Shown piece by piece: positions 1-11,888 of a stretch of DNA of 26,671 nucleotides. The DNA comes from a virus. The stretch covers positions 1 to 26,671 of IMG/VR virus record IMGVR_UViG_3300021168_000019, one strand, 5' to 3'. The translations under genes and the position numbers were made by a program. The notes beneath the pieces are model-generated. The model worked only from the letters and a program-made list of their open reading frames with translations. It made no database searches and was not told where the DNA came from. How positions within the stretch are numbered: position 1 is the first letter of the stretch; every line of letters starts with the position of its first letter.

Positions 1-150
1 GCAAAAGAATTGGGCGATGTGCTTTGGTATATCGCAGCACTGGCCGAGGAGCTACGGATTCCCATGAGCACGATTGCTGGCATGAATATTGCAAAGCTTC
101 GTGACCGTAAGGACCGAGGCGTCATTAAGAGCGAAGGAGACAATCGATAA
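1..150 (+). CDS. MazG-like nucleotide pyrophosphohydrolase, C-terminal fragment
   Basis: The first 49 codons are open from the window edge and end in TAA, so only the C-terminus is present. The visible residues include KELGDVLWYIAALAEEL and, near the end, N-x2-KL-x2-RK and a final GDNR. This pattern is typical of the last helices of the all-alpha MazG/NTP-PPase family, with the E-x2-D metal-binding pair in ELGD. Such enzymes hydrolyse nucleoside triphosphates to monophosphate and pyrophosphate; phages use them to clean or reshape the dNTP pool, and some lower the alarmone ppGpp. Substrate cannot be read from a fragment. A strong hairpin follows five bases after the stop, so this gene ends a transcript. 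Confidence 0.8.
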   Translation, partial: AKELGDVLWYIAALAEELRIPMSTIAGMNIAKLRDRKDRGVIKSEGDNR

Positions 151-377: not shown

Positions 378-1211
378 ATGATTCACATTCTTAACAAAAA
401 CTTGCTCATTCCGTATAAGAGTTTCACATTCTCCGGTGGCGAGATTCAGGTAAAGCTTACGCCTGCTAACTTGGAGTACAGTCCTGACTGTCCGGTAGAC
501 TTTCATGCTACTATTACATCTGCTAGTGACCTGATGGAACTGGCGTTGCTGGTAGACGCAATTGACCGTTGGTTTTTGGATAAGTTCTATTCCAAGCCTG
601 TCAGAAAGAACTTGCACCTTCCTTATATGCCATATGCGCGGCAGGACCGAGTGTGTGCGCCCGGTGAAGCGTTGGCCCTTAAGGTGGCAGCTAACTTTAT
701 CAATTCATTGAAATTTGACGAGGTACACATTTCAGACCCTCATAGTGATGTAACCGTGGCTTTACTTGACCGGGTACTAGTACAGGATTTGATTAGCATC
801 TTCAAAGATAGGATGCCTACTACAGCTTTCATGGGTGGTACAGTTCTCATTGCGCCCGATGCTGGAGCTAGTAAGAAGGTTTTCAAGCTAGCACAATATC
901 AGAATGTTCGGATGGTACAGGCTGAGAAAGTCCGTAATCCTCTCAATGGGGAGATTACCGGGACGGTGGTTCACAGCAATGGGCTAGGAGCTAGTCCTGT
1001 CCTAGTAGTCGATGATATCTGTGATGGTGGGCGAACGTTCATAGAACTTGCCAAGCCATTGTCTGAGATAACTACCGGGAAGCTTTCCCTATACGTGACA
1101 CATGGTATCTTCTCAAAGGGACTGACAGATTTGCTGGAATGGTACGATTATATCTACTGTCCCTATGTGTTCCCTAACGTTGAACAAGATGAAAGGTTGA
1201 TTCGTATATGA
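378..1211 (+). CDS. PRPP synthetase-like enzyme (possible ADP-ribose pyrophosphokinase of a NAD+ reconstitution pathway)
   Basis: Start chosen at ATG 378, which follows AGGAGAGATGGG; a TTG 63 bases upstream has no such signal and lies inside the previous gene. The 277-aa product has the ribose-phosphate pyrophosphokinase layout: FSGGEIQV near residue 20 (family FxDGE), PYARQDR (the ATP-loop R-Q-x-R), SDPHSD, a K-x-R catalytic-loop remnant in EKVRNPLNGE, and the PRPP-binding loop VLVVDDICDGGRTF near residue 220 (canonical DDMIDTAGT). Canonical PRPP synthetases are about 310-315 aa, so this is a short, divergent phage form. Its stop overlaps the start of the next gene by ATGA, and a nicotinamide phosphoribosyltransferase-like gene completes the cassette. 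It therefore either makes PRPP for NAD salvage or, as in the phage NARP1 pathway, pyrophosphorylates ADP-ribose. The sequence alone does not separate these. Confidence 0.88.
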   Translation: MIHILNKNLLIPYKSFTFSGGEIQVKLTPANLEYSPDCPVDFHATITSASDLMELALLVDAIDRWFLDKFYSKPVRKNLHLPYMPYARQDRVCAPGEALALKVAANFINSLKFDEVHISDPHSDVTVALLDRVLVQDLISIFKDRMPTTAFMGGTVLIAPDAGASKKVFKLAQYQNVRMVQAEKVRNPLNGEITGTVVHSNGLGASPVLVVDDICDGGRTFIELAKPLSEITTGKLSLYVTHGIFSKGLTDLLEWYDYIYCPYVFPNVEQDERLIRI

Positions 1212-1477
1212 GTAAAGCTACACTCTTCGAGACGCATGAATCTTCAATGGTGCTAATTGTAAATGATGGTAACTTGGCGTATCCTAATACATCAGTAACT
1301 ATTGAAGGTTGTAATAGGAGTGCTATTGCAAACGGAATCGTCCGTATGATAAATGAAAATCAATGTTCAGAATGCGGTAAGTTTAATGGACTCCACGGAG
1401 AGGTTTTCCATGTAACGGATATGGATAACGGAGAAGTCAGAGGTAAATATTTGATGTGCTCGAAAGGAATAAAGTGA
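1208..1477 (+). CDS. Small CxxC protein inside the NAD cassette, 89 aa
   Basis: ATG at 1208 overlaps the previous stop as ATGA, and the gene's own TGA at 1475-1477 overlaps the GTG start of the Nampt-like gene as GTGA. AAAGG lies about 12 bases upstream, so coupled re-initiation probably contributes. The C-terminal half holds CSECGKFNG and a later Cys in LMCSKG, which could form part of a metal site with a nearby His (HGEVFHV). No family is recognised. Its double overlap places it in the same translation unit as the two NAD enzymes, which suggests a shared role, but that is an inference from position only. Confidence 0.7.
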   Translation: MSKATLFETHESSMVLIVNDGNLAYPNTSVTIEGCNRSAIANGIVRMINENQCSECGKFNGLHGEVFHVTDMDNGEVRGKYLMCSKGIK

Positions 1478-2949
1478 ACATTTTTCCACTACACGCAACG
1501 GACTTCTACAAGACCGGCCATCCGTCACAGTACCCAAAGGTGACAGAGTTTATCAATGAGAACTTTACTTGCCGGTCTTCGAAGTTCCTCAACGCTGGAC
1601 CCGGCTACGATGGCAAGGTGGTATTCTTTGGTCTGCAATATGTCCTGAAGAATCTCCTCATCGATACGTGGAATAAGAATTTCTTTGACCTTCCTGAAGA
1701 GGAAGTCATTGCCAAGTACAAGCGTAGGATGGATATGGCTCTAGGGCCGAATGCCGTGGACATGGAGCATGTCAAACAGTTGCACCGTGTTGGGTACCTG
1801 CCTATCGAGATTAAGGCTCTCCCGGAAGGCTCCCGTGTCGATATCCGGGTTCCGCTCTTCACCATGAAGAATACCATCTCAGGCTTTGCGTGGGTGGTCG
1901 GTTATCTGGAGACGGCAATCTCTGCGGAACTCTGGCAGATTATCACATCGGCAACCGTGGCCTATGAATACAGAAAGCTGTTCACAGACTACGCTCTTAT
2001 GACTGGAGCACCTTTGGAATTCGTTCCGTGGCAGGGACACGACTTCAGCGCCCGTGGCATGGTAGGAACAGTCGGTGGGGCCACGAGCGGGATGGGCCAT
2101 CTCACTAGCTTCACTGGTACTGATACGATTCTGGCCTTGGACTTCCTTGAAGAGTATTACCACGGAGCAGACACGTTCCTTGGCGGTAGTGTACCGGCTA
2201 CAGAGCACTCAGTCATGTGCATGGGAACTCAGGACAGTGAGATTGAGACATTCCGGCGCTTGATTGAAGATGTTTATCCCAAAGGAATCGTCAGTATTGT
2301 ATCTGATACGTGGGACTTCTGGGAAGTTATCACTAGCTTTGCTCAGTATTTGAAGCCTCGAATCCTTGCCCGTTATGGGAAGGTGGTATTTCGGCCTGAC
2401 TCCGGGGACCCTGTAAAGATTATCGTAGGTGACCCCGATGCTAGGTTTGGCTCTCCTGCTTATAAAGGAGCAGTTGAATGTCTCTGGGAAATCTTTGGCG
2501 GGACTAGGACTCCGTTTGGGTATAAGGTTCTCGATTCACACGTTGGCCTTATCTACGGAGATAGCATCTCATTGGACCGCGCACAGCGTATCCTTGAAGG
2601 ATTGAAGACTAAGGGATTCGCTTCTAACAACATTGTCTTTGGAATCGGTAGCTACACGTATCAGTACGTTACCCGTGACACTCTGGGGACCGCTATTAAG
2701 GCCACATGGGGACAGGTAAACGGTGAGGCGCGTAATCTGTTTAAGAAGCCCAAGACGGACAACGGCATGAAGAATTCGGCCTGTGGGTTAATCCGAATCG
2801 AATTTGAGAACGGTCACTATGTTCTCTACGACCAACAAACCCTTGAGCAAGAACAGCAGGGCCTCTTGACAACCGTGTTCAAGGATAGTAAGATTGTACT
2901 TGAGCACACAATCGCGGACATTCGCACTAGACTTTTAACGGGCGCGTAA
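1474..2949 (+). CDS. nadV: Nicotinamide phosphoribosyltransferase-like enzyme (NadV/Nampt family)
   Basis: Start chosen at GTG 1474: AAAGGA lies just upstream and GTGA overlaps the previous stop, matching the ATGA junction one gene earlier; a GTG at 1456 is in frame but lacks this signal. The 491-aa product matches the Nampt family along its length: HATDFYKTGHPSQYP at the N-terminus, HDFSARG, GTDTILAL, SVPATEHS (equivalent of the catalytic His loop), FRPDSGDPVK (phosphate and ribose binding) and YVTRDTLGTAIKAT. Nampt joins nicotinamide and PRPP to give NMN. A closely related phage enzyme, Namat of NARP1, joins nicotinamide to ADP-ribose-pyrophosphate and gives NAD+ directly. The partner gene at 378 fits either scheme. 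The stop codon lies within a tRNA-Arg gene. Confidence 0.93.
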   Translation: MNIFPLHATDFYKTGHPSQYPKVTEFINENFTCRSSKFLNAGPGYDGKVVFFGLQYVLKNLLIDTWNKNFFDLPEEEVIAKYKRRMDMALGPNAVDMEHVKQLHRVGYLPIEIKALPEGSRVDIRVPLFTMKNTISGFAWVVGYLETAISAELWQIITSATVAYEYRKLFTDYALMTGAPLEFVPWQGHDFSARGMVGTVGGATSGMGHLTSFTGTDTILALDFLEEYYHGADTFLGGSVPATEHSVMCMGTQDSEIETFRRLIEDVYPKGIVSIVSDTWDFWEVITSFAQYLKPRILARYGKVVFRPDSGDPVKIIVGDPDARFGSPAYKGAVECLWEIFGGTRTPFGYKVLDSHVGLIYGDSISLDRAQRILEGLKTKGFASNNIVFGIGSYTYQYVTRDTLGTAIKATWGQVNGEARNLFKKPKTDNGMKNSACGLIRIEFENGHYVLYDQQTLEQEQQGLLTTVFKDSKIVLEHTIADIRTRLLTGA

Positions 2950-3015
2950 CTCAGAAGGAAGAGTCAAGGATTTCTAATCCTTTGGTCGCAGGTTCGAGTC
3001 CTGCCGTGCTCTCCA
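2940..3015 (+). tRNA. tRNA-Arg(TCT)
   Basis: A complete 76-base cloverleaf can be folded by eye: acceptor GGGCGCG with CGTGCTC (two G-T wobbles), T8, D stem ACTC/GAGT with a G18G19 loop, anticodon stem AAGGA/TCCTT with loop TTTCTAA (anticodon TCT at 2973-2975), 5-base variable region, T stem GCAGG/CCTGC with TTCGAGT, discriminator T and encoded CCA. It reads AGA and AGG codons. Its first ten bases are also the last codons and stop of the Nampt-like gene, and its complement encodes the C-terminus of the opposing HNH protein. Confidence 0.92.
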
Positions 3016-3460
3016 AATTATCATGTTCCCAATGGCAATTGGGACACAAACGTAGAAGATTGAACCTATCGTTGACTACTGAAAGTTTGGTATCAAGTGG
3101 AAAGGTTGAAATAGCCCGGATGTGACAGACTTCAGTATGTTTGTTATATCCGCAACGTTGACAAGGGCAATCTGGAAACGATGCTCTAGCTCTTGTTCTA
3201 ACCAAGGCATAAGCTGAAGACTTGTGCTGGTGTTCGTAAATGGCTTCTTGTAGGGTTATGTCTTTCATTTCAAAGCGTTTAACCCTACATGGTGGACAAT
3301 AGTGATGGCTTTTTGGAATTAGTACGTTACATGCTTTACAGCGCTTAGTTAAGAGTTTAGGTCTAGGCGAACGTTCTCTACCACGGTTAGCACAAAGACG
3401 TGAGCAGAAAGCCGGATTGGTGGTAGTAGTGCCACATGGGCAAACGGTAGTGGGAATCAT
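2951..3460 (-). CDS. HNH endonuclease with zinc fingers, 169 aa
   Basis: The protein has three cysteine clusters. The first two (CPCG...CSRLC and CKAC...CPPC) look like short zinc ribbons. The third is the HNH nuclease core: CQRCGYNKHTEVCHI, then an N-rich strand and LCPNCHWEHDNL, with the H of CHI and the following N and H as likely metal and catalytic residues. Such free-standing enzymes nick or cut DNA and spread by homing. The last 20 or so residues, beginning ESTAGLEPATKG, are antisense to the tRNA-Arg, so the natural end of the domain is probably near HDNL. A strong promoter lies immediately upstream, and the ATG would be only about five bases from the predicted transcript start; no clear ribosome binding site is seen. 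Confidence 0.85.
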   Translation of the reverse strand: MIPTTVCPCGTTTTNPAFCSRLCANRGRERSPRPKLLTKRCKACNVLIPKSHHYCPPCRVKRFEMKDITLQEAIYEHQHKSSAYALVRTRARASFPDCPCQRCGYNKHTEVCHIRAISTFPLDTKLSVVNDRFNLLRLCPNCHWEHDNLESTAGLEPATKGLEILDSSF

Positions 3461-3510: not shown

Positions 3511-4671
3511 ATGACACAGACAGCAATTACATTCTTTAAGAAGGGCGATGCGTTCTTCCAAGGTGTTGACACTCCTAGCCAACGGTATGAGAAGCTTCCC
3601 GGTGGGATTTATCTCGTAAGCGTGTCAATGGAAACTGGGTTCTTTGTGAGAGAACTCCCTAACTTCGATTTGCCGAAGCGTCTCTACGGAGACATCAAGA
3701 AGCAAGCTATCCGTATCTTGGATACCTTTGCTGACCGTCCAGCTACTACCGGTGTGCTTCTGTCCGGGGAAAAGGGCAGCGGTAAGACTCTTCTGACGAA
3801 GACGATTTGCAGCACTGCGGCTAAACTCGGCATCCCTACGCTGGTCGTAAACAACTCCTTTGGCGGGGATAGCTTCAATACCTTCTTGCAGAGCATTACA
3901 CAGCCTTGCATTCTTCTGTTTGATGAGTTTGAAAAGGTGTACGACGCCGACTCGCAGCAGGGCTTGCTGACACTGTTTGATGGTATCTTTACCACGCAGA
4001 AGCTTATCCTGTTGACTAGCAATGACTACGGCAAGATTAACAGTCACCTTCAGAACCGTCCGGGTCGTATCTATTACAATCTGGAATTCAACGGTTTGGA
4101 TAACGACTTCATTATGGAATACGGCAAGGATAACCTGAAGAACCCGGCGCACGTAAATGGTCTGGGAGTTGTTGCCTCAATGGTCAAGCCGATGAGTTTC
4201 GACATTCTACAGGCAATCGTGGAAGAGTGCAACCGGTACGATGAGTCGCCAGTCAAGACGATGGAGATTCTGAACGTTAAGGAATACTCTAGCTTCGCTG
4301 ATACTTACCTTGTTTCCATCGTGTCCAAGAAGGGCAAGAAGATTAGCCTGAAGGCCGGTGAACCGGATGAAGACGGAGATTTTGAGGATAACTCTGAGGT
4401 TCGTTGCAATCCATTTAAGGCATTCCGGTGCGATTACTACCTTCACGTTCCAGCTACTACCAAGGCCGGGAAACCAAAGAAGGCAACGGCACAGTACGTT
4501 GGTAACATTCTCAAACCGGAACAGTTGACTTCCTTCGATGGAATCCACGGTATCTACAAGTTTGAGACTGAAGACTTGCTGGTTACCCTGACGCGTAAGC
4601 CTCTGGACAGTCAGACGAAGTTTGAGAAGTACGAGCATCTGGCCGTTACGGAGGATAGAAAGGACCTGTAA
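3511..4671 (+). CDS. AAA+ family ATPase, 386 aa
   Basis: ATG 3511 follows AAAGGGAAT. The AAA+ module spans roughly residues 55-230: Walker A GEKGSGKT (86-93), Walker B CILLFDEFEK (D138, E139), sensor-1 LLTSND (N171) and an Arg-finger-like QNRPGR (181-186). The C-terminal 150 residues, beginning around the acidic GEPDEDGDFEDN stretch, match nothing I recognise and may be a partner or DNA-binding domain. The fold is that of a remodelling ATPase rather than a replicative helicase; the role in the phage is unknown. It stands alone between an opposing HNH gene and a strong bidirectional terminator, so it has its own transcript end, though I see no convincing plus-strand promoter just upstream. Confidence 0.85.
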   Translation: MTQTAITFFKKGDAFFQGVDTPSQRYEKLPGGIYLVSVSMETGFFVRELPNFDLPKRLYGDIKKQAIRILDTFADRPATTGVLLSGEKGSGKTLLTKTICSTAAKLGIPTLVVNNSFGGDSFNTFLQSITQPCILLFDEFEKVYDADSQQGLLTLFDGIFTTQKLILLTSNDYGKINSHLQNRPGRIYYNLEFNGLDNDFIMEYGKDNLKNPAHVNGLGVVASMVKPMSFDILQAIVEECNRYDESPVKTMEILNVKEYSSFADTYLVSIVSKKGKKISLKAGEPDEDGDFEDNSEVRCNPFKAFRCDYYLHVPATTKAGKPKKATAQYVGNILKPEQLTSFDGIHGIYKFETEDLLVTLTRKPLDSQTKFEKYEHLAVTEDRKDL

Positions 4672-4683
4672 ACAAAAAAAAAT

Positions 4684-4709
4684 AGGCTCCCGTTTATAGG
4701 GAGCCTTTT
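4684..4709. terminator. Bidirectional terminator between the converging arms
   Basis: Perfect 8-bp stem AGGCTCCC (4684-4691) and GGGAGCCT (4699-4706) with a 7-base loop. TTTT follows on the plus strand, and a long A-run (4672-4683 area) gives a T-run for minus-strand transcripts. The last codons of the minus-strand HNH gene lie in the stem. Confidence 0.9.
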
Positions 4710-5182
4710 CTGTATTCTAATACCGCTTTCATTGCTACTAGCATTTCATCATGGGTGAGTAAATCTCGTTTAATCATATTACAACTGGTACAACACACAA
4801 CACAATTTTCCTTGGAATATCCTAGTGAGTTATCCTTCCTATCCAAAAAGTAGGCCCTAGATGTATACTCTCCTCCTACGGTAGAATACGGAATCCACGG
4901 TATAAGACAGGAGCAGTAACAGCAGTTTGGAACTTTAGTGAAGTCTAAAAACTCTTCATAAGTTATTGTATTACCCAGCTTGCGCCAATCATTCAGAAAG
5001 CATTTATAGATACTTTCATAGGGCCGCTTCTGATGAGAATGGGTCTGACACATGCCGGAGTGAGACTTATTATCATCCCGAATTCTGACTTCAGTGGCGC
5101 ATCCGGGTGCAGCGCACTTGTACACCCGGATAGTTTTACTAGGTTTGCTATTATATTCTACACGAATTAGCGAATCGGACAT
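4694..5182 (-). CDS. HNH endonuclease downstream of the ribonucleotide reductase, 162 aa
   Basis: Start chosen at ATG 5182, which follows GGGAGGAGT; an in-frame ATG 15 bases upstream would place that binding site inside the coding region. The N-terminal half has a CAAPGCATEV...CQTHSH zinc-ribbon-like cluster. The nuclease half has KRPYESIY, TYEEFLDFTKV, CCYCSCLIPW, FLDRKDNSLGY and NCVVCCTSCNMIKRDLL, a known phage HNH layout where LDRKD and the Cys pairs form the metal centre. It is a clear paralogue of the HNH gene at 11331-11888. The start lies within the last 16 bases of the reductase gene, so it would be co-transcribed and coupled to it, and it ends in the 4684-4709 terminator. A selfish insertion is the simplest reading. 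Confidence 0.85.
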   Translation of the reverse strand: MSDSLIRVEYNSKPSKTIRVYKCAAPGCATEVRIRDDNKSHSGMCQTHSHQKRPYESIYKCFLNDWRKLGNTITYEEFLDFTKVPNCCYCSCLIPWIPYSTVGGEYTSRAYFLDRKDNSLGYSKENCVVCCTSCNMIKRDLLTHDEMLVAMKAVLEYRKGSL

Positions 5183-7035
5183 ACTCCTCCCTCGCATTCC
5201 ATCCCTTCAATCATGCGGCCTTCGCCGATGTCTTCTATTTGGATAGGCTTAATCTTGCTAGATAATTTCTCATATTGCTCACGAGTAATTGCCTCTTTAG
5301 GAGCCTGTTTGAATCCGTGATCCCCGTGACATAGAAAACTAATGGACTTGACAAATTGTAAATTCTGTGCTACCCATTCTTTCAGTTTCGGGATATCTTC
5401 ACGTTTATAATACACCGTTACTGATACCGCCTGATCTGACCAATGTTTCTGCGCCATCTTTAGTACATCCAATTGCTTCCATGTATCCCAATCTTCATCT
5501 GCGACGGGGCTTCCTTCAGGAGCGGCTACGTAGAAGTCTACTACTAAAGTCTGCTGGTCTAACGTACCATCAAATCTTATCACAGGTTCAATGTGATGTC
5601 CAGCGGCTCTCAATTTCGGCACCAACGGGTCGTTAGATGCTACTCGGATGCGCTGGACAATATACCGACTCCATGCCGCATGGATTCCCTCATACCCGTT
5701 ACAGTCTAGAACTTTTGACATCGTACCGGAAGGTTTGACTACCGTAGTTCTCTTGCTCAAAGGCAATCCTAGCTCTTTGGAGTACTTTGCATCCTCATCT
5801 TGAATGGCGGCATAGGCCCGGTCTAGTGTTTCAGGTAAGAACAGCCCAGAAGCTAGACAGCCGGTGATGCCGTTCCCTGTGCGCCTATTACGGGCGATTA
5901 CAGCCTGTGAGAGAGGATGATGATATCTTTCCATAGTCACGCGCTTTGCATAGCGCTGCATGAGCCTAGAGGCGTCAATGAACTCCTGTTCTGACTCCAT
6001 GTTGCACAGGGCCATCTCGGTTAAGTTGCATGGCTCACCGTTCTCAAGAGTCGCTTCTGCGCAAGGGTTGACGCCTATCGCGCTGTCAGGTTTTAGTTCT
6101 CCCATGCGCCCATACTTCTGAATGGCAGTACGGTTTACAATCCCGAATGGCTCTCCTTGCTCATACGTCTTCCAGAATAGAGGGTGGAAGTCATCAGTAT
6201 CATCACAGACGACTGAGTAATTAGCGCAGCTACGATGAGTAGGAATAGGTCCTAAATCCCATCTCTTAGCCCTGAGATAATCTTTATCCCATACATCTCC
6301 AAGAATAATAATAGCAGATCGACGCACGTTGCCTGCTACAACCATCTCTCCTGTAGCCGTTAGAATATCTGCTGCGTCAATGGGTCGAACTGGCTTTCCT
6401 GCTCTTGGTAGAAGAATGGACAGTAAGGTATCAATAAATTTAATCAATGGCAGCGGTCCACTTGCTACTCCTCCAAATCCAACAATCGGCTCTCCGTATC
6501 CTCTTAGGCAAACTGTAGAGTAAGTAAATGACTTACCGGTTTCAAATAAACTCTCTAATACACGTCTAGTAAGTTCGCACCATCCTTCACGAGAATCGGG
6601 CACGATGAAATCAGCATCTTTGGTAGCTTTGTGCGTAATGTATACATCTTTCTTAATCCTAGGAAGTTTACTGGTAAATTGATGCTCAACAGATAACCCT
6701 ACTCCTCCTCCTAGCATTAGTAAATCTTGTGCTATAACAAAATGATTGTAATCTGCTGCCGTTAGAAACCAACAGTTATTTAAAGCTGCTCCACCAAATC
6801 TCTCATGGGCCGGTGCTCCCGAGAACCAATAGCCTCTCCCTGCCGGTCCTGCCTTACGTTCGTTAGCTAGTCTAAGTAGTTCCTTGATTTCGGCTTCTGG
6901 AACATTCTTTCCTTTGACGTTACCCATAATGGCACGTTCTACTGTTTGGTTCCAATTTTCTAACTGCCCATGATCTTTCCGCGCATAAGTTCGGCGGTAC
7001 ACAATACTTGCGAGATTACTGAATTCCTTTGACAT
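5167..7035 (-). CDS. nrdJ: Adenosylcobalamin-dependent (class II) ribonucleotide reductase
   Basis: Start chosen at ATG 7035 after AAGGGA; an upstream in-frame start would add 13 residues with no signal. The 622-aa product has the single-chain class II layout of the Lactobacillus leichmannii triphosphate reductase: NNCWFL (first redox Cys, about C88), GGGVGLSVE, NPCAEATLENGEPCNLTE (radical Cys about C325, Glu about E327, second redox Cys about C336), VVKPSGT, and a C-terminal CEGGVCPIR carrying the shuttle Cys pair (C614, C619). All key cysteines are present. It turns ribonucleotides into deoxyribonucleotides with B12, without a small subunit or oxygen, so it works in aerobic and anaerobic hosts that can supply or take up cobalamin. 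It is followed by an overlapping HNH gene and preceded by a terminator. Confidence 0.93.
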   Translation of the reverse strand: MSKEFSNLASIVYRRTYARKDHGQLENWNQTVERAIMGNVKGKNVPEAEIKELLRLANERKAGPAGRGYWFSGAPAHERFGGAALNNCWFLTAADYNHFVIAQDLLMLGGGVGLSVEHQFTSKLPRIKKDVYITHKATKDADFIVPDSREGWCELTRRVLESLFETGKSFTYSTVCLRGYGEPIVGFGGVASGPLPLIKFIDTLLSILLPRAGKPVRPIDAADILTATGEMVVAGNVRRSAIIILGDVWDKDYLRAKRWDLGPIPTHRSCANYSVVCDDTDDFHPLFWKTYEQGEPFGIVNRTAIQKYGRMGELKPDSAIGVNPCAEATLENGEPCNLTEMALCNMESEQEFIDASRLMQRYAKRVTMERYHHPLSQAVIARNRRTGNGITGCLASGLFLPETLDRAYAAIQDEDAKYSKELGLPLSKRTTVVKPSGTMSKVLDCNGYEGIHAAWSRYIVQRIRVASNDPLVPKLRAAGHHIEPVIRFDGTLDQQTLVVDFYVAAPEGSPVADEDWDTWKQLDVLKMAQKHWSDQAVSVTVYYKREDIPKLKEWVAQNLQFVKSISFLCHGDHGFKQAPKEAITREQYEKLSSKIKPIQIEDIGEGRMIEGMECEGGVCPIR

Positions 7036-11203: not shown

Positions 11204-11347
11204 TTACCTCGCGTGTTTCTTAGCTTTCTTAGGAAGTTTCTTTCCCTTAGAAGCTGCGTTCCATTCATTTACATCAACGCCTTCTTTCTCAAGTTTCTTC
11301 TTGTTAGCGTTGAAGAATGCTGCTTGTGCTTTACTTTTGTACGGCAT
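11204..11347 (-). CDS. Small basic phage protein of the KSKAQ type, 47 aa
   Basis: A 47-aa gene with ATG 11347 after GGAGAGAGG and TAA at 11204. The product begins MPYKSKAQAAFFNANKKKLE, continues with EWN-AASKGKKLPKKAKK and is strongly basic. This start (M-P-x-x-SKAQ-x-x-F) and the SKGKKLP motif recur in many short, uncharacterised phage and bacterial proteins. The function is not known to me; a nucleic-acid-binding role is possible from charge. It overlaps the end of the HNH gene by 17 bases and is directly followed by the 61-aa gene. Confidence 0.75.
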   Translation of the reverse strand: MPYKSKAQAAFFNANKKKLEKEGVDVNEWNAASKGKKLPKKAKKHAR

Positions 11348-11888
11348 CCTCTCTCCATGTTCTAATTACATCACCTAGTTGCTTCCACTCTTTATAAGTA
11401 AAATGAGTATTCTTCCCGATATTGCACCGTTTGCAGCATACAACTACATTATCCATTGTGTATGGAAGTGCACTATCTTTTCTATCTAGATTAGTAGCTG
11501 ATGAGTAGTCCTTGCCTCTTTGTCTAAATTTTGCCCAAAGAATCCTAGCTCCACAATAGTGACATTCATGTACAGTTGTGAATGTTAGAAACTCTTCATA
11601 ACTTATAAACACACGATGGTTGTCCAGTTTATCAAGTCTATTTTTCCATCCATTGTATAGGGCTTCATAAGGGCGTTTTCTCCGATATGGACGAATTGCT
11701 TTTAAACCCGGACTGCAATTACGACACGGGCCTCCTCTTTTTAAGTCTTGAGATAAACAAGTAAATTCTCTACCGCAGTCACATTTGACATTCCATAAAG
11801 GACGACTGCCAACGTGACTGTGTAAAGACAAGACAACTCTCTTATCGAATCTTTGCCCAGATAGATCAACCTTTAATCCCTTGTTCAT
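11331..11888 (-). CDS. HNH endonuclease with N-terminal zinc domain, 185 aa
   Basis: The N-terminus DLSGQRFDKRVV followed by WNVKCDCGREF and CRNC is the DNA-binding zinc motif common in phage homing nucleases. The C-terminal nuclease domain has KRPYEALY, SYEEFLTFTTV, CHYCGARILW, NLDRKDSALPY and NVVVCCKRCNIGKNTHF. It shares this whole order with the HNH gene at 4694-5182 and is its paralogue. No strong binding site precedes ATG 11888; the start lies 23 bases inside the end of the upstream gene, so coupling is likely. It sits between a DUF5664-type gene and a small basic-protein gene. No intron is visible in the neighbours, so it is free-standing. Confidence 0.85.
   Translation of the reverse strand: MNKGLKVDLSGQRFDKRVVLSLHSHVGSRPLWNVKCDCGREFTCLSQDLKRGGPCRNCSPGLKAIRPYRRKRPYEALYNGWKNRLDKLDNHRVFISYEEFLTFTTVHECHYCGARILWAKFRQRGKDYSSATNLDRKDSALPYTMDNVVVCCKRCNIGKNTHFTYKEWKQLGDVIRTWREDAVQK

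Follow-up and report, generated by a model that had tools for sequence, protein, structure and literature searches.

Near the beginning of the window analysed here (26,671 nucleotides from the start of a 98,604-bp virus record; all positions are those of the window), three coupled open reading frames (ORFs) on the plus strand at 378-2949 encode a PRPP-synthetase-like protein, an 89-aa protein and a Nampt-like protein. Do these two enzymes carry out ordinary PRPP-based nicotinamide salvage, or would they form the NAD+-reconstitution pathway NARP1, and does the small gene lodged between them belong to the pathway at all?

Organization and setting of the cassette

The first gene, adps (378..1211, plus strand), encodes the 277-aa PRPP-synthetase-like protein P0001; the second (1208..1477, plus strand) encodes the 89-aa protein P0002; and the third, namat (1474..2949, plus strand), which begins with a GTG codon at 1474, encodes the 491-aa Nampt-like protein P0003. 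Four-base overlaps, ATGA between P0001 and P0002 and GTGA between P0002 and P0003, link adps to namat through the middle ORF on one strand and in one operon, and plausible Shine-Dalgarno sequences lie 5' of P0001 (GGAGAGATGGGAAA) and of P0003 (AAAGGAAT). All features of the operon described in the original prediction, a short PRPP-synthetase-like gene and a Nampt-like gene joined by ATGA and GTGA overlaps, were found in place. The three ORFs are under purifying selection when compared with their relatives (pN 0.16-0.32, pS 0.69-0.90), and the PHROG families 'ribose-phosphate pyrophosphokinase' (PHROG_619) and 'nicotinamide phosphoribosyl transferase' (PHROG 448) match P0001 at 264 bits and P0003 at 620 bits, respectively, so that the enzyme-family matches are not attributable to chance.

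The two ends of the record, positions 1-162 of the window and the final 162 bp, overlap with 2 mismatches, which suggests a circularly permuted or terminally redundant genome that is probably near complete. A MazG-type pyrophosphohydrolase ORF (123 aa; Pfam PF03819), also read in locus L128, spans these ends, with its 3' part at 1..150 (plus strand) and its 5' part at the opposite end of the record; this gene is part of the same early module as the cassette and lies outside NARP1. On the other side, a tRNA-Arg (TCT) gene detected by ARAGORN (2940..3015, plus strand) shares 10 bases with the 3' end of namat, stop codon included, and nine tRNA genes are present within the window. An HNH_2 ORF with a Pfam match occupies 2951-3460 on the minus strand; two other minus-strand ORFs, at 4694-5197 and 11331-11888, are HNH-like by eye, the former having no Pfam match. 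The AAA ATPase gene adjoining the cassette (3511..4671, plus strand; Pfam AAA, PHROG_2376), which is given as context only, has homologues in the loci L007, L032, L076 and L083.

The Nampt-like protein P0003

P0003 belongs to the superfamily defined by Pfam NAPRTase/NAMPT_N, PHROG 448 and NCBIfam NF006629, and the solved structures nearest to it are PDB 9w5x and 9w5w, which represent the nicotinamide-bound and NAD+-bound forms of SpβL1 Namat (PMC12774641). We drew our criteria for NARP1 and Namat from the same study, which defined the Namat-specific SCH motif GSXΦXΦXΦTRD, in which the aromatic residues at positions 3 and 7 hold the substrate adenine (PMC12774641). Residues 392-402 of P0003 (GSYTYQYVTRD) fit this motif, with Y394 and Y398 at positions 3 and 7, and exactly the same motif is present in 23 of 121 aligned proteins. 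At this site human NAMPT and the NadV proteins of phages RB16 and V07 have a GGGLLQ-type motif, which is absent from P0003. The second clamp element, SCL, is represented in P0003 by K37-F38, which fits the published rule (Arg, or else Lys or Tyr with a stacking residue after it); the same pair is found in RB16 NadV, and the SCH half of the clamp is therefore the one that discriminates. The residues that contact NAD+ in the SpβL1 Namat structure are identical or conservatively replaced in P0003, and the catalytic core is kept, SpβL1 D13, Y15, F189, R192, D215, R306 and D308 corresponding to P0003 D10, Y12, F191, R194, D217, R307 and D309.

The placement of P0003 within the family agrees in outcome with its motif. 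Clustering with canonical Nampt proteins would have spoken against the original prediction; in a maximum-likelihood tree, P0003 instead falls inside a Namat-type clade together with SpβL1 Namat and ICP1 NrsB and apart from eight canonical Nampt/NadV proteins (SH-aLRT 99), in a tree built by a quick method without bootstrap and with many inner forks unsettled. P0003 shares 77% identity with its counterpart in L007, a sister phage, and 50% each with SpβL1 Namat and ICP1 NrsB, as opposed to 32% with human NAMPT and 29% with RB16 NadV.

Two proteins met along the way deserve mention. PDB 9ke8 was considered as a Namat reference; it clusters with SpβL1 Namat, yet its motif reads GAQTYQRNTRD, and it was left out for this reason. 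In the namat gene of another phage (L022:349-2730), a probable intein lies inside the SCH signature (GSY^CVSVDTP...YLSHN^TYQYVTRD), in the part of the active site that is most diagnostic for the enzyme.

The PRPP-synthetase-like protein P0001

The AlphaFold2 model of P0001 (pLDDT 93) has the PRPP-synthetase fold, and its best fold matches in the PDB are PRPP synthetases (TM 0.73-0.76). With the NCBIfam Prs model TIGR01251, P0001 scores 85.8 bits, below the 113-bit cut-off that is exceeded in 14 of 14 control genomes.

The loop DDICDGGRTF named in the original prediction is present at residues 212-221 and aligns with the loop LVDDMIDTGGTL (DDMIDTGGTL) of E. coli Prs. The form found in P0001, VVDDICDGGRTF, is the commonest among 122 aligned sequences, in which both Asp residues are universal and the Cys, the second Gly and the Phe are kept in 113, 120 and 121, respectively. 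The core DDICDGG(x)TF is near-universal across 121 relatives of P0001, which agrees with the earlier view that the changed loop favours a specialised enzyme. The 5'-phosphate of ribose-5-phosphate is bound by this loop in PRPP synthetases, and since ADP-ribose is linked to AMP at that position, a change in the loop would be expected of an enzyme that had switched substrate. The short length of P0001, by contrast, had been read as a further sign of a specialised enzyme and had to be given up as such, since 277 aa, though short for Prs, is a usual size in the Adps family, whose median ORF has 284 aa.

P0001 is 35% identical to ICP1 NrsA and 24% identical to E. coli Prs, the one protein representing the canonical side of this comparison; to that extent the protein sits apart from canonical Prs, with which it might have clustered had the original prediction been wrong. 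Taken from the loop, the cut-off and the pairwise identities rather than from a tree, the evidence favours P0001 being Adps rather than a canonical Prs.

Gene pairing and the route to NAD+

Among viral loci retrieved with P0001 alone, 79 of 80 contain a Namat-like ORF, and of the loci retrieved with P0003, an Adps-like ORF is present in 17 of 18 from bacteria and 22 of 24 from viruses, some of the misses being contig ends. Of 122 non-redundant loci, 95 have the two genes as neighbours, separated by no more than 120 bp. No match to the NMN adenylyltransferase (NMNAT) family (CTP_transf_like, PF01467) was obtained in the 98.6-kb phage record, while 14 of 14 controls were positive. Near-obligate pairing together with the lack of a detectable NMNAT in the phage record favours the two-step NARP1 route, and the latter result also argues against a NadV-NadM route. 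A single PHROG profile, PHROG_12872 (547 positions), gives matches to P0001 as well as to P0003, a hint that Adps and Namat may exist fused in some phage. PADLOC returned no relevant match.

Canonical salvage, in which P0001 would make PRPP from ribose-5-phosphate, P0003 would convert it to NMN and a host NMNAT would complete NAD+, can draw on several observations: the folds are the same as those of the salvage enzymes, down to the PRPP-synthetase fold of P0001; most records annotate such pairs as PRPP synthetase and NAMPT; in vitro, SpβL1 Namat accepts PRPP as well and forms NMN from it roughly half as fast as human Nampt does (PMC12774641); and the nearest bacterial relatives (Acinetobacter, about 60-63%) occur in cassettes that can include nadM, a PRPP-salvage arrangement. 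We nevertheless regard this reading as most improbable, given the SCH motif and Namat-clade position of P0003, the non-Prs loop and sub-threshold Prs score of P0001, the NMNAT result above and the phage NadV routes examined (CcrPW with NadM, RB16 and VAC13), which are without a prs-like gene.

The middle ORF P0002

P0002 shows purifying selection of its own (pN 0.28-0.32 against pS 0.76-0.90) and, judged by this substitution pattern, is a genuine gene, new in sequence. The protein matched nothing above cut-off in Pfam and nothing in PHROG, NCBIfam, PADLOC or INPHARED, and a profile search of IMG/VR recovered only two relatives, L006 and L150, at 58% identity. Its C-terminal half contains invariant Cys53, Cys56 and Cys84 together with His63 and His68, residues that may form a zinc site. 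An AlphaFold2 model built from only three sequences (pLDDT 70) gave no significant Foldseek match in the PDB or BFVD.

The slot between adps and namat is occupied in other loci as well. Macro-domain genes lie there in L119 and L083 (above the Pfam cut-off) and in L024 and L050 (by a local profile); counting genes inside or near NARP1 operons, macro-domain-like genes were seen in ten loci (L083, L050, L024, L119, L114, L014, L020, L012, L098 and L122), and macro proteins near NARP1 have already been noted in phage Adele (PMC12846349). Homing-endonuclease-like ORFs also occur in the slot, that of L036 being of the GIY-YIG type by Pfam and the others being judged by eye. In phage DyoEdafos, RyDEP (gp78) is encoded within the NARP1 operon (PMC13232231).

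Against this background, P0002 could be a functional third component of NARP1, for example one that supplies ADP-ribose as RyDEP does. Its translational coupling to both enzymes, the selection acting on it and the small genes that other NARP1 operons carry at this place (macro-domain proteins, and RyDEP itself) would fit such a role. RyDEP, however, is a glycosidase with a RyR domain, and P0002 as a protein of this type was rejected, as there was no match to PF02026 at E up to 1; a macro-domain protein was likewise rejected, with no match to PF01661 in P0002 or elsewhere in the phage record and 8 positive controls. The distribution of P0002 also points away from the pathway. In the 89-kb record of L150 its relative comes after a cupin gene, and in the 36.9-kb record of L006 it comes before cupin and MazG genes. 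Neither record yielded an Adps or Namat in a search that detected Namat in three sister phages, the L006 record being a fragment that starts just before the P0002 relative, with the upstream neighbour outside it, and both records being possibly incomplete. Conversely, the nearest NARP1 relatives are without P0002: the slot holds an unrelated DUF4884 protein in L007 and is empty in L032 and L076. A role as third component is accordingly very unlikely in our estimation, and we find it highly improbable that P0002 is a new NARP1 accessory, probably zinc-binding, that handles an ADP-ribose-derived immune signal or regulates both enzymes, with the adps-namat gap as a hot spot for partners.

Because relatives of P0002 occur where no NARP1 genes were found, and NARP1 relatives occur without P0002, this ORF most likely belongs to the cupin-MazG early module of this phage lineage, as a resident bystander, rather than to the pathway. 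Of the small middle gene that the original prediction placed in the cassette, its presence, reality and coupling stand, and membership of the pathway probably does not, its relatives lying beside cupin and MazG genes.

Discussion

Two readings of the enzyme pair had been proposed, NARP1-like reconstitution and PRPP-based salvage; the SCH clamp motif of P0003 and its placement in the tree, the Adps-like loop of P0001, the almost invariable pairing and the failure to detect an NMNAT gene in the phage record favour the former, and we consider it very likely that the cassette is a NARP1 NAD+-reconstitution operon of a 98.6-kb tailed phage. In such an operon P0001 (Adps) would move pyrophosphate from ATP onto ADP-ribose to give ADPR-PP, and P0003 (Namat) would couple ADPR-PP with nicotinamide to form NAD+ directly. 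NAD+ lost to host NADase defences (TIR, SIR2 and SEFIR effectors) would thereby be replaced, and such effectors split NAD+ into exactly ADP-ribose and nicotinamide, the predicted substrates of the cassette. What the data show is how the genes are built and paired, the fold and family of their products, the residues of active site and clamp, and the selection on them; we infer the reactions and substrates, and the anti-defence role of the pair, from characterised relatives. The homologous ICP1 pair nrsAB lets the phage grow again in the face of Nezha, a SIR2-HerA system (PMC11559045), and Adps and Namat of SpβL1 shield E. coli from KomABC (PMC12774641).

The pair might instead have a metabolic role and supply NAD+ for the replication of phage DNA. 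MazG, RecA-like and RNR genes lie near it, and NARP1 is kept by bacteria too, both in published work (PMC12774641) and in the bacterial loci retrieved here. We consider this unlikely, since homologous phage pairs counter Nezha and other NADase defences (PMC11559045, PMC12774641) and the substrates of the pair are the products of NADase effectors.

Among known systems, SpβL1 NARP1 (Adps-Namat) has its genes in the order seen in the cassette, the same folds and, in a Namat 50% identical to P0003, the same catalytic residues and SCH clamp motif; it differs in that an 89-aa ORF separates the genes here, that Lys37-Phe38 stands in place of SpβL1 SCL Arg40, and that the cassette is known from sequence. 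The anti-Nezha pair NrsAB of ICP1 has adjacent genes in the same order (35% identity for NrsA and 50% for NrsB) but no gene between them, and genetic evidence supports it where sequence evidence supports ours. The DyoEdafos operon resembles the cassette in having a small gene inside it (PMC13232231), although that gene product, a RyR-domain (PF02026) protein, has no likeness to P0002 in this domain. NARP2 or NadV-NadM salvage (RB16, VAC13, V07, CcrPW) shares the Nampt fold, whereas its examined examples have no prs-like gene beside them, CcrPW has NadM, and RB16, VAC13 and V07 have the GGGLLQ-type motif, P0003 being 29-31% identical to the RB16 and V07 proteins. Finally, bacterial cassettes (Acinetobacter, Erwinia, Saprospiraceae, Leucothrix) have the Adps-Namat pair, with Namat 52-63% identical and the Namat motif; they differ in lying in bacterial genomes, and the Acinetobacter one examined also has a nadM-like gene. 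One record with an adps-namat-nadM cassette, L002 (CAKLQF020000015.1), is named 'Acinetobacter phage MD-2021a' and looks like a bacterial chromosome.

In summary, the cassette appears, on strong sequence evidence, to be an ordinary further example of a counter-defence system already known, NARP1. What novelty remains lies in the middle gene only, for which the evidence leans to a bystander. The recurrence of extra genes between adps and namat makes this slot a reasonable place to search for new anti-defence partners, of which P0002 itself is probably not one. Most records still call such pairs PRPP synthetase and NAMPT, a warning for the reading of these annotations, and our results would extend NARP1, with the sequence rules that divide it from ordinary NAD salvage, to an uncharacterised lineage of phages.
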